IMG/VR virus record: IMGVR_UViG_3300005747_000106
Coordinates: 1 to 32,704 of that record
Length of the DNA: 32,704 bases
DNA from: a virus
Strand: one strand, 5' to 3'
In this document: positions 3,052-30,249 of the stretch, piece after piece
Position numbering within the stretch: position 1 is the stretch's first letter
Layout: the number at the start of each line of letters is the position of its first letter
The notes under the pieces: model-generated
Databases searched by the model: none
What the model saw: only the letters and a program-made list of their open reading frames with translations
Told to the model about the DNA's origin: nothing
Program-made: the position numbers and the translations under genes

Positions 3052-3078
3052 AAAAAAAGCCACGGTCACCCGTGGCTT
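3052..3078 (-). terminator. Intrinsic terminator upstream of the primase gene
   Basis: AAGCCACGG at 3057-3065 and CCGTGGCTT at 3070-3078 form a 9-bp stem with a 4-base loop. On the minus strand a run of seven T (complement of 3052-3058) follows. It ends transcripts of the 3099-3437 gene, so the primase needs readthrough, antitermination or its own promoter. Confidence 0.85.
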
Positions 3079-10321: not shown

Positions 10322-10507
10322 TTAGGCATCGCCTAGATGACGATCCCCAAACATATCTCTACTTTCTTCATCGTTCGGGAAGTCTTCAGGCATCCCATTT
10401 GCGTCTTTTGCACTTTCATGCACGTCTCTTGCAAGCCATCCACAAAAAGTTGCAATGATCAACATGACCACTGTGTAGACTTGCCCTGTTGTTGTTGTTA
10501 AAAGCAT
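10322..10507 (-). CDS. Small single-pass membrane protein
   Basis: A 61-residue protein. Residues 8-26 (QVYTVVMLIIATFCGWLAR) form one hydrophobic helix, followed by a charged, acidic tail of 35 residues. This is consistent with an inner-membrane anchor with a cytoplasmic or periplasmic tail. It is the first gene of the leftward early operon after the terminator at 10528-10558. Function unknown; superinfection exclusion is one possibility for such a position, but there is no direct evidence. Confidence 0.6.
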   Translation of the reverse strand: MLLTTTTGQVYTVVMLIIATFCGWLARDVHESAKDANGMPEDFPNDEESRDMFGDRHLGDA

Positions 10508-10518
10508 TTCAGTTACTC

Positions 10519-10558
10519 CAAAAAAAAACGCTCCGATGCTGTCAGGCCATCGGAGCGT
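10519..10558 (-). terminator. Strong intrinsic terminator ahead of the early operon
   Basis: ACGCTCCGATG (10528-10538) and CATCGGAGCGT (10548-10558) form a perfect 11-bp stem with a 9-base loop, followed on the minus strand by nine or more T. It lies between the leftward promoter (10687-10716) and the first early gene, so early transcription must pass it. The loop contains CTGACAG (minus strand), complementary to an upstream leader segment at 10594-10600. Confidence 0.9.
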
Positions 10559-10680
10559 CCCAAACCGAGGAAGGTTTTATGGTTCGCAAAAGTCTGACAG
10601 TAAAACCAGTTGCGACTTAATCCTTTTGAATCCTTGCGACCAGAGTTCCATTCATCCTTGGTCGCCGTCGCAACTGGCAT
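10519..10680 (-). ncRNA. Structured leader RNA or small RNA
   Basis: From a predicted start at about 10680 the minus-strand transcript forms a nested hairpin at once. The outer stem is CCAGTTGCGAC/GTCGCAACTGG (10606-10616 with 10667-10677, 11 bp); the inner stem is GCGACCA/TGGTCGC (10636-10642 with 10659-10665). A linker and the terminator at 10528-10558 follow. The product would be about 160 bases. It may be a free small RNA, an attenuator, or a put-like antitermination leader. A 55-codon frame (10680-10513) also starts at the same A and reads through all the hairpins; I do not call it a gene, but a leaderless leader peptide cannot be excluded. Confidence 0.55.
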
Positions 10681-10686
10681 GGTGAA

Positions 10687-10716
10687 AGAATACGGGTTCA
10701 AAAACCCGATTCTCAA
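10687..10716 (-). promoter_or_regulatory. Predicted leftward early promoter with a palindromic operator
   Basis: On the minus strand TTGAGA (10716-10711) and TATTCT (10692-10687) are separated by 18 bases. The spacer holds CGGGTT-TTTG-AACCCG, a 6-bp palindrome that extends to imperfect arms GAAT/ATTC. A repressor bound there would block the promoter. The predicted start is the A at 10680, six bases beyond the -10 box. Confidence 0.55.
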
Positions 10717-10773
10717 ACTCGCACAAAAAAGCTTGAAAAAACACGACATTTGCCCAAAGGTGTCACAGTTCAT

Positions 10774-10817
10774 GCGAGGTCGTGTGAGGTCGTGCAATTT
10801 CAAGATAGATCGTGCAA
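10774..10817 (+). promoter_or_regulatory. Three direct operator-like repeats in the switch region
   Basis: The unit AGGTCGTG or AGATCGTG occurs three times on the plus strand between 10774 and 10817 (GAGGTCGTGTG, GAGGTCGTGCAA, AGATCGTGCAA). The first two are 11 bases apart and the third 20 bases further on, about two turns. They lie between the two divergent promoters, where phage repressors or Cro-like proteins usually bind. Confidence 0.6.
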
Positions 10818-10833
10818 CGCATGATCTACTGCT

Positions 10834-10846
10834 TATGATTTCAACA
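10834..10846 (+). promoter_or_regulatory. Predicted -10 box of a leaderless plus-strand transcript
   Basis: TATGAT at 10834-10839 is followed by TTCAAC and then ATG at 10846. The expected transcription start is the A of that ATG, so the message would have no leader, as for lambda cI from PRM. No good -35 box is seen, which suggests that an activator binding the repeats at 10774-10817 is needed. Confidence 0.5.
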
Positions 10847-11079
10847 TGGAAAAACTACTAACTATTCCCGAAGTTGCAGCACTGCTTAACGTAGGTCGGA
10901 CGACTGTTTATCGCCTGGTCGAGTCGGGAGAATTGCGTTCAAAAGTTGTCGGCAAAAACAAGCTTCGAAAGACGATCCGAATCAAAAAAGAATGGGTTGA
11001 TGACTATATCAACTCAGACATTCCTGAAATTAAGATCTCGAAACATCGTAAACCGAAGACCACTGTTGAAATCTTTTAA
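10846..11079 (+). CDS. Excisionase/AlpA-type helix-turn-helix protein
   Basis: A 77-residue protein. Residues 4-54 are a MerR-fold helix-turn-helix of the excisionase (HTH_17) type: LLTIPEVAALLNVGRTTVYR, then LVESGELRSKVVG, then RIKKEWVDDYI. A basic tail follows. It begins the only plus-strand transcription unit in the window and shares the control region with the leftward operon. It may be the excisionase partner of the integrase or the switch regulator; the position in the immunity region slightly favours a regulatory role. No Shine-Dalgarno precedes the ATG, which fits a leaderless message. Confidence 0.75.
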   Translation: MEKLLTIPEVAALLNVGRTTVYRLVESGELRSKVVGKNKLRKTIRIKKEWVDDYINSDIPEIKISKHRKPKTTVEIF

Positions 11080-12668: not shown

Positions 12669-12706
12669 GGGGACAATTCGGGGACATAGTTTTAGAGCAG
12701 TGCATA

Positions 12707-12752
12707 AAAAAAGTCATTTCACCTCAAATATAGTTGGTGAAATGACTTTTTT
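12707..12752. terminator. Bidirectional terminator between int and the att core
   Basis: AAAAAAGTCATTTCACC (12707-12723) pairs perfectly with GGTGAAATGACTTTTTT (12736-12752), a 17-bp stem with a 12-base loop. U-runs exist in both directions. It isolates the integrase gene from leftward transcripts coming from the late side and would also stop plus-strand transcripts before the att core. Confidence 0.85.
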
Positions 12753-12768
12753 AAATAGCTAGTCTTCC

Positions 12769-12792
12769 GGTTCGATCCCCGCCGCCTCCACA
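12769..12792 (+). other. att core: 3' end of tmRNA (ssrA)
   Basis: The segment begins GGTTCGATCCCCGC and ends CGCCTCCACA. It contains the T-loop TTCGATC, the 3' strand of a T-stem (CCCGC), an acceptor 3' strand CGCCTCC and discriminator A. The U at position 70 predicts a G3-U70 pair, the alanine identity of tmRNA and tRNA-Ala. The sequence to the left does not pair with the T-stem, so only the 3' fragment is present. On integration it would restore the host gene end. tRNA-Ala is the alternative to tmRNA. Confidence 0.7.
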
Positions 12793-12795
12793 TAG

Positions 12796-12820
12796 AAAAG
12801 CCCTGTTTTACGGGGCTTTT
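12796..12820 (+). terminator. Terminator downstream of the att core
   Basis: AAAAGCCCTG (12796-12805) pairs with CGGGGCTTTT (12811-12820), 10 bp including one G-U, with a 5-base loop. It lies where the terminator of the tmRNA gene should be. The phage thus carries a replacement 3' end together with a terminator. Confidence 0.8.
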
Positions 12821-12864
12821 CGCATTTCTCATGTCCCCGTAAGCAGAAATAAGTCCAATTTGTT

Positions 12865-13272
12865 TCAGCTTAGGGGACAATGTCCCCGGTCAATCCTTGC
12901 CGCAACAGATATCGCATTGATCATTCGAGTTCCCCGACTGTCACCGGTTCGTCGCACCCAGTCAACTTCGTTGTTTTCGACCCATTTACGAACTTCATGC
13001 TTCGGTTGAGCAAATGCCTCGCAAATGTCACCTATCGTCATCCACGCCTGCCCACGAAAAGCATCGTTTGCAAGTTCAAGATTTTCCAAAGCTTCTCGCT
13101 CGTCAATGATCGTCGGTTTGGTTTGTTCCTCACTAAATTTCTCCTCCTTGTTTTCTACAGCGGTCAGGCTCAAAAGTATGCGTGTAATTTGTTCACATTT
13201 GTCAAAGTCATACCTGTTTGCAAGCTCGATAGCTCTTTCGAGCAAGGTACGATTAAGATCTTCGAAATCCAT
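12865..13272 (-). CDS. Putative helix-turn-helix DNA-binding protein
   Basis: A 135-residue protein. Residues 1-60 are helical and charged. Residues 85-133 form an excisionase-like helix-turn-helix: MTIGDICEAFAQPKHEVRKW, then VENNEVDWVRRTGDSRGTR with wing-like basic residues. The coding tail contains the att arm palindrome (12873-12887). It could be a second excisionase-type or regulatory factor acting at attP. The ATG 13272 is preferred to a TTG at 13299; GGAA lies upstream at an ordinary to long distance. Confidence 0.6.
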   Translation of the reverse strand: MDFEDLNRTLLERAIELANRYDFDKCEQITRILLSLTAVENKEEKFSEEQTKPTIIDEREALENLELANDAFRGQAWMTIGDICEAFAQPKHEVRKWVENNEVDWVRRTGDSRGTRMINAISVAARIDRGHCPLS

Positions 13273-13346: not shown

Positions 13347-13464
13347 CGCATAGAAATCCGCTCTGCGGGTTTCGAGTGGTCGGCAACGAACTTCATCGTT
13401 GTTGGAAGTTGCCGACCCGATTAAAAATTTGAAAAGCCCAGCAGTAGCATGCTGGGTTTTTTTT
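13347..13464 (+). ncRNA. Candidate plus-strand small RNA with three hairpins
   Basis: Three hairpins follow in order: GAAATCCGC/GCGGGTTTC (13353-13361, 13365-13373), GGTCGGCAAC/GTTGCCGACC (13378-13387, 13408-13417, 20-base loop), and the terminator stem CCCAGCA/TGCTGGG (13437-13443, 13450-13456) with eight T after it. No plus-strand coding frame of any length ends at this terminator, so a small non-coding RNA antisense to nothing nearby is the simplest explanation. The start at about 13347 is inferred from the weak promoter. Confidence 0.5.
13437..13464 (+). terminator. Intrinsic terminator on the plus strand
   Basis: A 7-bp GC-rich stem (CCCAGCA, loop GTAGCA, TGCTGGG) is followed by eight T. 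On the minus strand it has a shorter T-run and could act weakly on leftward transcripts as well. Confidence 0.85.
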
Positions 13465-25239: not shown

Positions 25240-26202
25240 TTAGGTGGACAATGTGATCTCGATCGCATACTGCCACATGAAGTAACCAAAGTTGTACCGA
25301 GCTTCGGTCATGAACTTGATGTACTTGTCTTCGATCGAATTGAGACCTTTGATCTCAGTTCGAAGTCTCTGCCGTGGTTGCCATACGAATGGCTTGAGTC
25401 GACCACCGACATAGAACAAGTAGAACTTCGAATCCGAACCGTTGGTCTCAGTCGCATTTAAATAAGGGCACGACAAGATCGTTGGCTTTTCGCGGAAGTG
25501 GTTGGTGGTTGCACCAAACGAAGAACTGACGATTTCGAGCGATTGCTTTTGCTCAAATGCATCATCAATCGGGTCTTCCAACGCACCAGGGCAGATGACA
25601 ACAAAATCAGACATTCGGACGACGTTCGGGCGATACCAGAACTTTCCGTTGTCTTTTTTGAAGGTCTTCATCCGAGCGATACCAGCACGAATTGCTTTCT
25701 TCGCTTCCATTGGAGTTACGTTTGAAAGCGATCCAACAGTGCTGGTAATCTTGTTGGACAATGCCGTTGAGTCTCGCCACAAGTGGTCCGAGTCAAAGAA
25801 GTACTGACCATCATAACAGTTCGTTGAAGCACCATTTTTGACCAAGTCAAAAAGGAGTTCGTCAGGATGACACATTGCTTCATCGCCAAGGTCGGCAATC
25901 GCATCGGTGTACATCCCGATTCGATCGTCGTCGTAATCGACTCGATCGATTTCAACGGATGACTCAAAGTGCTTGTTAGGTACGGTAAACCGAGCACTGG
26001 TCAATTGGTGAAAAACACGATCACCAAGGAACTCACGCATTCCAGGCTGTGAACCTGAAATGACGTACTCTTCATCACGACCGGATGAATTGTTAACCGT
26101 GCACATCTGCGGATAGATTGGGGCAGCCTTTGCCGCTGCCTGCCGGAATGTTGCGGTGATACCACGTTTTACCGCATTCACCTTGGCGGTTTCAATTGCC
26201 AT
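25240..26202 (-). CDS. Major capsid protein, Mu gpT type
   Basis: A 320-residue protein matching the Mu gpT major head family over most of its length: MREFLGDRVFHQL, then VPNKHFESSVEIDRVDYDDD, RIGMYTDAIADLG, HPDELLFDLVKNG, CYDGQYFFDSDH, and near the end LKPFVWQPRQR and YNFGYFMWQYAIE. gpT forms the icosahedral shell in the HK97 fold. A strong ribosome-binding site (AGGAG) precedes the ATG, as expected for a very abundant protein. It is preceded by the decoration protein gene and followed by a strong hairpin. Confidence 0.9.
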   Translation of the reverse strand: MAIETAKVNAVKRGITATFRQAAAKAAPIYPQMCTVNNSSGRDEEYVISGSQPGMREFLGDRVFHQLTSARFTVPNKHFESSVEIDRVDYDDDRIGMYTDAIADLGDEAMCHPDELLFDLVKNGASTNCYDGQYFFDSDHLWRDSTALSNKITSTVGSLSNVTPMEAKKAIRAGIARMKTFKKDNGKFWYRPNVVRMSDFVVICPGALEDPIDDAFEQKQSLEIVSSSFGATTNHFREKPTILSCPYLNATETNGSDSKFYLFYVGGRLKPFVWQPRQRLRTEIKGLNSIEDKYIKFMTEARYNFGYFMWQYAIEITLST

Positions 26203-26288
26203 TTTATTAACTCCTGAATGTTAGTTAGTTTTGTGCGGATGCCCGCTGATAAGCAACGGGTTTAACGAACCCGCCAACTAATTTTTAG

Positions 26289-26705
26289 TTAGGGAAGTTG
26301 AACGTCAATCTTGACCCAAACTTGAGTTGCCGAGGCGAACTTAGTAACTGTTCCAATGTAAGTGCGACTTGTGCTAGTCAAATTCACGGCATAGTTATCC
26401 GTTGCATAGATTTTTTTTCCAACATCGTCGGCAGCAAACCCAGAACCGGTAAGCAAAAACTCACCTTCCTGGTAGAACTCACCATCCACATCGCCATCGG
26501 CACCGGCAGAGTTATCTGATCCGCCCTGGGCAACGATTCCGGCGAACTTGTTTGCTCCACCGTTGATAACATTGGTCAGTTGACCATCAGTCGCATCGAT
26601 AAAGCACATTGTTAAATCGTAAAGTGTGATGGCGGCACCGACCGGTCCATCACCAAGGAATCCAGCATTTCTCATCTGGGTGTATTGTGCAGCTGTAACA
26701 GCCAT
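26289..26705 (-). CDS. Head decoration or cement protein (DUF2190-like)
   Basis: A 138-residue beta-rich protein, starting MAVTAAQYTQMRNAGFLGDG and containing KFAGIVAQGG, GEFLLTGSGF, and a C-terminal strand region VTKFASATQVWVKIDV. The pattern of a small beta-barrel with GIV and G-x-F-x-L elements is typical of capsid cement proteins of the DUF2190 or Mu gp35 kind, and the position between protease and capsid equals lambda D. GGAG lies eight bases upstream of ATG 26705. Confidence 0.65.
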   Translation of the reverse strand: MAVTAAQYTQMRNAGFLGDGPVGAAITLYDLTMCFIDATDGQLTNVINGGANKFAGIVAQGGSDNSAGADGDVDGEFYQEGEFLLTGSGFAADDVGKKIYATDNYAVNLTSTSRTYIGTVTKFASATQVWVKIDVQLP

Positions 26706-26764
26706 TTCATTCTCCAAAGTTTATTGTTTGTTTGATCGCAACTCTTCAAGCTTCCCGGAGGATT

Positions 26765-27844
26765 CTACTCGAGGAAGTCTGCGTACCCAGCTGAAAGCGA
26801 GTCCTTGTACGTTTCGAAGTCACCGACTTCCAAACCCATTGAAACTGCAAGATCGTATTCTTCTTTCAGTTTCGCATCTTCCTTGCTCGCTGGAGCGGTT
26901 GTTTCTCCAGCACCATCATCCATTGAAGAGGCACCAGACGACAAAAGGTGATCATTGAATTTGATCATTGCCGCTTCGCTAGTGAGCTTGCCTTCGCGAA
27001 TCTGCGAAGAAAGACTGGTTACGTCTTCCTTTGGCATCTTGCCGAGAGCACGTTCAGCAAAATCGACTGCAGCAAGGGCAAGGTCGGCTTTTGCAAGCTT
27101 CGCGTCTGCTTCCTGTTCTCGCTTTTCGATCTCACTCGCATTCGCAAGTTCTTGCTCACGAGCTTCTCGAGCCGACAAAGCAGACTCGATTGCTGCCGTG
27201 ACAGAATTGCTGATTGTGTCCTGAATGAAGGACTTCGTTTCGTTATCTAGAGGCACTTGACTGCCCTCCATTTCGGGACTGTTTAGATCTTCGGAGGTAT
27301 CCGTCCCGTCAGGATCGTCCGAACTTAAAAATGAATTGGTAGCATCACCCTCGAGGACAATATCACCTCCTCTTAGGGTCTTGATGTGCCAGGCTGAAAC
27401 TGTGCCACCATCCGACTGACGGTCAATCTCACCGGGACGTAATGAGAAACCAAGTGCTCGAGGGTCTTCCTCGGCCAGGTCCATCACGTATTCGCCCCAG
27501 CTTCGGTCAGTCTTTGTGTTTGGTTGCGGTTTCATCGCCGTCTTGCTCAGGTGCAAATCGACTCGAGTCTTTCCGCCATCACGTCTCGCGTTTTTGAAAA
27601 CGCCAAGGTATGGGCGATCAACATCGTTACCGCTCGAGGGATGTCCGAGGTAGGAGATGAAACCACGATCGTTTGAATTAATGAGTTTTGCAATCTGGTC
27701 AAGATCCTGATCTCGGAACTTCCCTCGACGAGTTTTAAACGTCCCGACTTCCGCCGCGACAATCCCTCGGATTACATTGTGATCACGATCAACACCAAGG
27801 TGATTAATCGGACCAGCATCTAGTTGATATTCACAAACAGGCAT
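26765..27844 (-). CDS. Prohead protease with scaffold domain (Mu gpI-like)
   Basis: A 359-residue protein. Residues 1-170 look like the phage protease group: FRDQDLDQIAKLIN, then SYLGHPSSGNDVDRPYLGVF and RVDLHLSK, then ALGFSLRP, as in Mu gpI. Residues 210-330 are a long, Ala/Glu/Lys-rich helical region (ESALSAREAREQELANASEI) that should act as internal scaffold, as in Mu gpI/gpZ. Processing of itself and of the head proteins during maturation is expected. It overlaps the portal stop (TAATG) with GGAGG upstream. Confidence 0.7.
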   Translation of the reverse strand: MPVCEYQLDAGPINHLGVDRDHNVIRGIVAAEVGTFKTRRGKFRDQDLDQIAKLINSNDRGFISYLGHPSSGNDVDRPYLGVFKNARRDGGKTRVDLHLSKTAMKPQPNTKTDRSWGEYVMDLAEEDPRALGFSLRPGEIDRQSDGGTVSAWHIKTLRGGDIVLEGDATNSFLSSDDPDGTDTSEDLNSPEMEGSQVPLDNETKSFIQDTISNSVTAAIESALSAREAREQELANASEIEKREQEADAKLAKADLALAAVDFAERALGKMPKEDVTSLSSQIREGKLTSEAAMIKFNDHLLSSGASSMDDGAGETTAPASKEDAKLKEEYDLAVSMGLEVGDFETYKDSLSAGYADFLE

Positions 27845-29730
27845 TATTCGTAACCTCCAGCCATTTCTTTTTCCTCTTCACGATCCTTGGCATCGGTGTC
27901 AGTCGATTCAGAATCTTCAGAGTTGTTTTGGTTGTCTTCTGGCATCGGCAGTCCTGCTGCCGCTCGAAGTTTGCGGTCAAGTGCTTCAACTTCGACCTGA
28001 GTTCGAAGTCTTGCTTTCTTTTCTTCCGCGCGAATCCTCTCCTCCTCGAAGAAGTCTTCGCCATCTTCCTGAGCAAAACGCGATCGAGTTGATTGCTCTG
28101 ACTCGATTGCAACCCTGCGAGCTTTGAACTCTTTCTCTTCGTCGATTGCACCAAACGGCTTGCTTCGCCAAATTGCATCTTCGTACAAATCTGGCTGTTC
28201 TCGATAATCGAATAGGCTTATTGATGGGATCAAATCATGCAGTTCAATCATGTTCCAAATTGCAGCTTTCCAAAGTGGTCTGCAGAACATGTCAATCAGG
28301 ATCGCCTGTCTCATCTTGAAAGCACGTTTTCCATCAAGCATTGCAAGCTTCCCGGAGGAGAATGTCGTGCGAAAGAAATTCTTTGCAAGCAACTCATACG
28401 GGTAGTTTGCGGCACTGGCAATTGATCGCAATCCAGCCTCAATAAACGGAGCGAACGATGCACCAGGTCGACTTGGGTCGATGACCTTGATGTCTTCGGG
28501 TCCGCGATGGATCATCCCAGGAGAGAGTTCTTCTTCAAGCCAACCAGTGCGAGAATCGGTTTCACCGTTGGACGCTTGCCCAGCTAGTGTATGCGGGTCG
28601 GCAGTCGTGTCAGGATTTGTTTGAATGTGAATTCCAAAGCACGACTCAATATGCTTGATTATCAATTCAGCTTCGAAGTAATCATCAATATCTTTCATTC
28701 GATTCGCCGCAGCACCTAACCACGGGATCCCTCGAGATTGCTCAGGGAAAATAGGATCGAAAACATGAATCATTCTCGGGTGACCATCTGGACCGAATCG
28801 AGGATAAAACGTGTGCTTGTATTCGACTTGCAAGTTGTCGCCGGGATGCTCCGACCTTACCCAGTAACCGGTCACTACCGTGTTTCCGGTGCTCCCTGAA
28901 ATTTCCCAGGATTCTGACTCGCTGTTGTACTGATAATAATTTCCTTTTTGCACACCAAACCGACATGATGGATCAGACTGTAGACCTGGAGGTGACTCAA
29001 CTCGCTCTGCTGCGATCAATTGAATTGCAAGGTTAATTGGACCTTTGATGTTTGCTGATGAACCAACGAGGACAAAAGCTTCGCCCATGTTCGCGAACTC
29101 TCGACACACTTGCCGCTGAATCGCGTAGAACGAATGTTCTCGAGATGGATCAACACCAGACTCTGACCACAACCGAAAATATCGCTCAATAAACCTGCGG
29201 GAAGCTGCAGCAACCTCAGACGAAAGCTTACCCTCAAACTCAGTCACCTGGGACTGTGGAACAACCCCCTCGCCAACCTCGTGAGAAACTCGACCTTCGA
29301 TCGCAGAGTGAGCAATCGTGTTTGTGCGGTACAATTCCCGCATGCGGATCTGAGTTGACTCAAGATCTTCGTCTGCACCAGCGTCAGGTGAAAGAAGGGC
29401 ATCGCCCCAGCGATCTTCACGATGTGGATCATTTGAAGCGATCGGATTGAAACGTCCTGCAAGAACGTCCTGATACATCTCGTTTCTGACCGCAAGCTCG
29501 GTGTATTTATGCCGAGCTTCTATTCGGCTGTTAGCCCAAGTTGGGGCGATGAACCCAGTAATGTTTTCGTCAAACCAATTCCCTACTCTGTGGGAGAATG
29601 GTTGCTTGTGTGAATTTCGTTTTTGTTTTTGTTTTTTGAAGAATGAACTCGTAAGCGCACGCAACCTGGAGACCTTACGTTGCCGTGTAGGTTTCTTTGG
29701 GGTTTGCATGTTTGGGCTCAGTTTCGACAT
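27844..29730 (-). CDS. Portal protein, lambda gpB family
   Basis: A 628-residue portal protein. Typical family parts: ELYRTNTIAHSAIEGRVSHE, an EFANMGEAFVLVG strand, IHVFDPIFPEQSRGIPWLGA and AANRMKDIDDYFEAELIIKH, then a GLRSIASAANYPYELLAKNF segment with FRTTFSSGKLAML. These define the lambda-type portal (PF05136). The N-terminus is very basic and the C-terminus acidic with a helical arm (about 540-628). It forms the dodecameric DNA gate. AAGGTAAC precedes the ATG. The gpW gene stops one base before the portal start. Confidence 0.9.
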   Translation of the reverse strand: MSKLSPNMQTPKKPTRQRKVSRLRALTSSFFKKQKQKRNSHKQPFSHRVGNWFDENITGFIAPTWANSRIEARHKYTELAVRNEMYQDVLAGRFNPIASNDPHREDRWGDALLSPDAGADEDLESTQIRMRELYRTNTIAHSAIEGRVSHEVGEGVVPQSQVTEFEGKLSSEVAAASRRFIERYFRLWSESGVDPSREHSFYAIQRQVCREFANMGEAFVLVGSSANIKGPINLAIQLIAAERVESPPGLQSDPSCRFGVQKGNYYQYNSESESWEISGSTGNTVVTGYWVRSEHPGDNLQVEYKHTFYPRFGPDGHPRMIHVFDPIFPEQSRGIPWLGAAANRMKDIDDYFEAELIIKHIESCFGIHIQTNPDTTADPHTLAGQASNGETDSRTGWLEEELSPGMIHRGPEDIKVIDPSRPGASFAPFIEAGLRSIASAANYPYELLAKNFFRTTFSSGKLAMLDGKRAFKMRQAILIDMFCRPLWKAAIWNMIELHDLIPSISLFDYREQPDLYEDAIWRSKPFGAIDEEKEFKARRVAIESEQSTRSRFAQEDGEDFFEEERIRAEEKKARLRTQVEVEALDRKLRAAAGLPMPEDNQNNSEDSESTDTDAKDREEEKEMAGGYE

Positions 29731-29731
29731 G

Positions 29732-29959
29732 TTACCTTTTAATTCGGGCGCGAGTTCTGGCGGATCCGGTGGATGATTTTGACGTGTAACGAGAGATCAA
29801 CTTTTCAACCATATCGAGAGTCGCTTGGGTAGCTGGATAGCGAACCTCTTTTGCTCCCATCATCACCTGGGTCACATTTTTGCCAGCAAGAATGTCGGCA
29901 ATGACCTTGTCTCGGGTCAGTTTGAGTTGCTCAAGAACTTCTGCATCGGTATTAGCCAT
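29732..29959 (-). CDS. gpW-like head-tail joining protein
   Basis: A 75-residue protein: two helices around a short beta hairpin (TRDKVIADILAGKNV, then KEVRYPATQATLDMVEKLIS), with a basic tail. Length and pattern fit gpW, which closes the portal after packaging. Its place between terminase and portal is that of lambda W. The start has only a weak GGTTCGAG upstream. An 89-base segment with a palindrome separates it from the zinc-finger gene. Confidence 0.75.
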   Translation of the reverse strand: MANTDAEVLEQLKLTRDKVIADILAGKNVTQVMMGAKEVRYPATQATLDMVEKLISRYTSKSSTGSARTRARIKR

Positions 29960-30001
29960 GCTCGAACCATAACCGATAGAGTCCTAAAGCCGGGCTAAAC
30001 G

Positions 30002-30018
30002 ATTTACATGATGTAAAT
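30002..30018. promoter_or_regulatory. Perfect 17-bp palindrome between late genes
   Basis: ATTTACAT-G-ATGTAAAT is a perfect 8+8 palindrome in the only sizable gap (29960-30048) of the late operon. The form is that of a dimer-binding operator. No clear promoter boxes are near. Confidence 0.5.
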
Positions 30019-30048
30019 AGGTAGTGAAATGTTATGACTCCATTACTA

Positions 30049-30249
30049 TCATCGTTTCTTCCTGCTTGGTACTCGAGGTGCATCGCCGATCGGAACGACA
30101 CGCTTCCCGCTCCATCCGCATTTTTTTGAACAGCCAAGGTACTGGGTTCGGTATTTCAAAGTCGTTGGTGAACTCGTAACACAGACAGTTCCTAGCAAAC
30201 AATCTGGACAGTCATGACCTGGCTCAGGTTTTTCGTTTTTGGTTTTCAT
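30049..30249 (-). CDS. Small zinc-finger protein (Ogr/Delta-like)
   Basis: A 66-residue protein with a four-Cys zinc site: CPDC at about 15-18, then CSKKC at about 40-44, in the context RTQYLGC...CGW, followed by a basic tail PRVPSRKKR. Spacing and the Arg-x-x-Tyr-x-x-Cys segment recall the Ogr/Delta late gene activators of P2 and P4. A position inside the late operon is unusual for such an activator. It may instead be a packaging accessory. The ATG 30249 overlaps the terminase stop as ATGA; an in-frame ATG at 30276 would lie within the terminase gene. Confidence 0.6.
   Translation of the reverse strand: MKTKNEKPEPGHDCPDCLLGTVCVTSSPTTLKYRTQYLGCSKKCGWSGKRVVPIGDAPRVPSRKKR

Follow-up and report, generated by a model that had tools for sequence, protein, structure and literature searches.

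We found that the RNA leading into the leftward early operon of IMGVR_UViG_3300005747_000106, a 32.7-kb virus record analyzed here over positions 1 to 32,704 (the window), can adopt two competing structures: an intrinsic terminator directly before the first early gene, and an antiterminator that is new here and was missed by the original prediction. All evidence was computational. Our preferred but tentative explanation is that repressible divergent promoters are combined with a conditional stop in early-operon transcription, the control part of which would be located at 10508-10605. Most likely, this locus controls divergent early transcription in a temperate tailed phage; the proposal of such a region was supported, and it adjoins excisionase and integrase genes. 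Two related phages were used for comparison, UViG_3300044657_001344 (sequences L002, L004 and L007) and UViG_3300044676_008138 (L003). The following features of the window were considered.

3057-3078, minus strand: second terminator, internal to the early operon and preceding the gene for the DUF3987 primase-like protein
10322-10507, minus strand: first early gene, an ORF of 61 aa with its ATG at 10507
10516-10519, minus strand: GGAG, Shine-Dalgarno sequence for the first early gene, touching the T-run of the terminator
10528-10558, minus strand: intrinsic terminator hairpin, 11-bp perfect stem, 9 T, T-run at 10520-10528
10539-10545, minus strand: antiterminator 3' strand CTGACAG, within the terminator loop
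10594-10600, minus strand: antiterminator 5' strand CTGTCAG, with the terminator loop as partner
10606-10677, minus strand: nested hairpin, an 11-12-bp outer stem around two inner hairpins (three-way junction)
10687-10716, minus strand: leftward promoter candidate TTGAGA-18-TATTCT
10693-10708, no strand assigned: palindrome CGGGTTTTTGAACCCG within the -35/-10 spacer, a possible operator or antiterminator-loading element
10776-10816, plus strand: three direct repeats containing TCGTG at 10780, 10790 and 10810
10806-10828, no strand assigned: imperfect palindrome TAGATCGTGC-AAC-GCATGATCTA upstream of the rightward -10 box (0.044 of shuffles have one)
10834-10839, plus strand: rightward -10 box TATGAT, 6 nt before the ATG of the HTH gene
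10846-11079, plus strand: excisionase-family HTH protein, 77 aa (Pfam HTH_17, PHROG excisionase, TIGR01764)
12668-11574: integrase gene

The leftward early operon begins at 10507 and encodes proteins of 61, 95 and 116 aa, an ABC-type ATPase, a Sak4-type AAA protein, a DUF669 protein, a helicase and a DUF3987 primase-like protein. The record also has genes for a GpA-type terminase, a lambda-type portal and Mu gpT-like head proteins. The first early protein has one likely membrane segment (by eye), 11 of 19 differences between its gene and that of L007 fall in synonymous codons, and the 95-aa protein weakly matched a transcriptional-regulator family. The gene for the 116-aa protein (10032-9682, minus strand) was the most conserved near the control region, with 347/351 nt identical to L007; no family was recognized for this protein, and an alpha-CTD-like end suspected by eye received no support in follow-up. 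Besides, small CsrA-like proteins were noticed by eye in translations upstream of the Sak4-type gene in L008 (3630-3803) and L009 (4404-4592), phages that have the replication module in common with the window.

A strong terminator had been predicted ahead of the first early gene, and it is indeed present, with arms that exceed shuffle expectation and a sequence (10528-10558) identical in both relatives. Its T-run abuts the Shine-Dalgarno sequence, and the promoter scan detected no sigma70-type match between the terminator and the first early gene; therefore, transcripts from the left promoter must cross the terminator. The positions of these elements support the earlier suggestion that early expression from this promoter requires read-through, and this read-through is probably regulated. 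Terminator hairpins directly before a Shine-Dalgarno sequence and start codon were also seen after the DUF669 gene in early operons of phages with a common replication module (L013, L016, L027, L031 and L034).

The antiterminator is a 7-bp CTGTCAG/CTGACAG stem over inner stems that take part of the terminator's 5' arm, and the two folds are mutually exclusive. Both pairings and their exclusion are directly visible in the sequence, as are the abutting ribosome-binding site and the sequence conservation in three phages. The antiterminator region, comprising the 47 nt ahead of the terminator and the terminator's 5' arm and loop, had a folding energy of -21.3 kcal/mol, compared with -11.8 ± 2.5 kcal/mol in shuffled sequences, 4 of 2000 of which were as low. 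When 20 terminators from the window and related phages were compared using a 47-nt upstream stretch, the window site and its L007 copy showed the strongest excess; this excess was gone with 70 nt upstream, a stretch which cuts into the nested hairpin. In stepwise folding of the three phages, the antiterminator formed first and the terminator afterwards, the antiterminator being favored until the 3' arm of the terminator is made. The energies were -26.7 for the terminator state and -21.9 for the antiterminator state, so that the terminator prevails at equilibrium once complete, and a barrier of 14.7 kcal/mol is predicted to separate them; these values describe equilibrium and stepwise folding, while in the cell polymerase pausing and effects of the exit channel determine which fold comes first. 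Near 10580, a short ORF on the plus strand, noticed by eye, was dropped because its frame differs between relatives.

These observations favor attenuation, which the original prediction had named as an alternative, since a second exclusive fold exists and is conserved in sequence. Exclusive antiterminator and terminator folds define transcription attenuators as a general class (e.g. PMC2965389). Like them, the window has a leader with two such folds and a terminator located upstream of the start of the first gene, and the exclusive fold was beyond chance with the 47-nt spacer; unlike them, its leader precedes a phage early operon and had no Rfam family match. We suggest that two gates would control the operon. 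At the first, the phased repeats between the left and right promoters would serve to regulate both, and the most likely regulator is the excisionase-family HTH protein encoded divergently. At the second, RNA from the left promoter, starting near 10680, would meet the conditional terminator immediately ahead of the first early gene's ribosome-binding site, and the leader would take either the terminator or the antiterminator hairpin (10600-10594 with 10545-10539), some factor or condition presumably selecting between them. If the terminator wins, as in equilibrium folding, termination would leave a folded transcript about 155-160 nt long; an antiterminator that closes before this has predicted kinetic stability, and polymerase would go through. 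The locus could act as a lysis-lysogeny switch, as originally suggested.

The strong terminator, the highly folded RNA and the preference for the terminator state once complete would also suit a possible but rather unlikely alternative, in which the left promoter mainly yields a structured small RNA, about 155-160 nt long and ended by termination, with the terminator as an insulator or leaky stop. Early genes would then be expressed through fixed low read-through or from an unrecognized promoter, and the alternative fold would have no role. It has been reported that IsrK of the Gifsy-1 prophage is a small RNA and that part of its transcription passes the terminator and enters the genes that follow (PMC4825925); the window would likewise produce a phage RNA with a terminator ahead of the next genes, but it gave no Rfam match. 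Terminator-like hairpins before genes are also common in related phages. However, no other promoter match was found ahead of the first early gene, no RNA family matched, and this explanation leaves the conserved antiterminator pairing unaccounted for. An Rfam search of the window yielded nothing at the gathering threshold, and its weak permissive matches were chance-like. Another structured stretch ending in a terminator was observed at 13357-13459 (plus strand); its conservation extends to L003, where inspection by eye suggested a possible compensatory change, and it perhaps represents a phage small RNA.

The preference for conditional termination at 10508-10605 also draws on where conservation falls. 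This stretch was 98/99 identical in both relatives, and the inter-promoter DNA (10717-10845) was 128/129 and 126/129 identical, whereas nearby genes were 77-99% identical, mostly about 90%. Both strands of the antiterminator pairing were identical in all three phages, which are near-identical copies. The nested hairpin was the least conserved part of the leader, with 66/75 and 68/75 identities (7 to 9 substitutions). Thus, conservation lies on the terminator/antiterminator stretch and the inter-promoter DNA, not on the hairpin fold, and the high identity can also reflect constraint at the DNA level. The searches gave no copy of the leader beyond these three phages. Searches with the AAA, HTH, integrase and 116-aa proteins gave no further phage carrying it; a pattern search of viral contigs for the outer stem returned the two known relatives and otherwise chance matches, apparently in coding sequence; and a covariance model of the leader run over 32 sources recovered the three known copies and noise. 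Similarly, a genome collection queried with the primase profile and with the putative attP core yielded no relative, and a DNA search in phage records gave no match.

The nested hairpin itself was found where it had been predicted, and its fold (-34.4 kcal/mol) was more stable than in shuffles (-17.7 ± 2.9 kcal/mol, z -5.7). Together, the hairpin arms and the terminator arms form two 11-nt perfect inverted repeats, and two such pairs occurred in 0.001 of shuffles. The original prediction regarded this hairpin as a possible antiterminator RNA like HK022 put, and named compensatory mutations in homologues as support for the fold. As with putL, an RNA of about 70 nt folds right after the early leftward promoter, and more than one terminator-like hairpin lies ahead. 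However, put consists of two consecutive stem-loops (PMC9378689), whereas the ends of the window hairpin pair around two inner hairpins as a single closed three-way junction, and a search of HK022 25500-30100, a stretch that carries no put annotation, gave no significant sequence match (12 nt at most, E 0.037). In the two relatives checked, the hairpin remained strongly folded (z -4.4 and -4.5), but every change at a base paired in the window structure breaks its pair, without any compensation; when the window hairpin was mutated at random, 25% of the mutants were as stable. With no compensatory pair and the poorest conservation in the leader, a put-like role is very improbable. A further cis-acting case is Tn916, a mobile element with terminators and the antiterminator RNA canT (PMC11658703). 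Its own transcript also has terminators to pass, but canT is a separate cis RNA, distant from the terminators overcome.

The leftward promoter with a palindrome in its spacer, as originally described, is present in the sequence, but its consensus match was at chance level (1 found, 0.8 expected), and promoter-like matches over 10 kb numbered 7 against 11.6 expected. Since such matches are no commoner than expected by chance, the case for the left promoter is based on where it lies and how well it is conserved; its stretch (10681-10716) was 34/36 identical in each of the two relatives. The inner GGGTTNNNNAACCC of the palindrome occurs exactly once in the window, and the outermost pair of the palindrome is lost in relatives (10693 C>T). 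Sequence between the -10 box and an ATG is nearly identical in both directions, TATTCT-TTCACC-ATG leftward (TTCAAC in relatives) and TATGAT-TTCAAC-ATG rightward. A leader peptide starting at ATG 10680 was unsupported because its lengths are unequal (55 codons here, 24 in relatives) and the differences have no synonymous-site bias.

The location of this palindrome between -35 and -10 bears on another explanation, that an antiterminator protein in the manner of lambda Q or Pseudomonas aeruginosa AlpA binds it and loads on polymerase, so that the terminators of the leader and before the primase-like gene are both read through and the alternative RNA fold is secondary. It has been reported that AlpA binds between -35 and -10 and enables polymerase to pass a terminator that precedes the first gene (PMC7969949, PMC9371919), and a similar element was proposed for GafZ (PMC11150451). 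The window resembles the AlpA, Q and GafZ systems in having a candidate element in the spacer with termination signals ahead; as at AlpA targets, one terminator is located directly before the first gene, and another lies within the operon (PMC7969949). Unlike these systems, it has no recognized antiterminator protein or established sigma-pause element. No AlpA- or Q-like protein was recognized among the proteins scanned, although such proteins share little sequence. Moreover, solved structures searched up to E 10 gave no match between AlpA and the HTH protein, which at 77 aa also lacks an N-terminal ring region like that of AlpA (PMC9371919), and the palindrome may be a simple operator. We consider this explanation unlikely. 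An AlphaFold model of the HTH protein (pLDDT 51) was too poor for a fold search.

On the rightward side, the three direct repeats that had been noted between the promoters are present. Their TCGTG cores share one helical face, with 10-bp phasing and one 20-bp step; a 5-mer in this spacing occurred in 0.0005 of shuffles, a post hoc value for a pattern picked after being seen. The predicted -10 box, TATGAT, also exists, but it has no recognizable -35: the promoter scan found no sigma70-type -35 at the correct spacing. A rightward promoter may nevertheless be located here, and the TATGAT-TTCAAC-ATG arrangement would fit a leaderless start of the HTH gene, in which 16 of 21 differences fall in synonymous codons. 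The HTH protein could be the ligand of the phased repeats. In phage 186, the excisionase Apl also represses early promoters and binds direct repeats spaced 10-11 bp apart between them (PMC7498355). Similarly, the window has an excisionase-family protein and direct repeats one helical turn apart between early promoters. In contrast to 186, where the promoters face each other and there are 7 repeats, those of the window are back to back with 3 repeats, here putative operators, and its repeats were not recognized at the putative attP; no cluster of GAGGTCGTGCA-like sites occurred near 12760. The probable attP (12669-12887) adjoins the integrase gene, and includes a segment (about 12760-12792) that resembles a tRNA or tmRNA 3' end; around this segment lie 5 of the window's 7 GGGGACA motifs, perhaps integrase arm sites.

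No CI-like repressor was detected among the proteins scanned, in a record that is possibly incomplete and whose short ORFs were scanned in part. It is improbable, in our estimate, that the early operon has no protein repressor and that immunity is set by the two-state fold of the leader or by the terminated RNA acting in trans. RNA-set immunity through premature termination is a P4-like principle, and the window phage is unrelated to P4.

Regulated termination before phage early genes is represented by few known systems, mostly from well-studied hosts. The present analysis moves the place to look for such control to 10508-10605, away from the conspicuous nested hairpin, and a compact leader with two exclusive folds, adjacent to a regulator of the excisionase type, would offer a simple case from an uncultivated group that can be tested.
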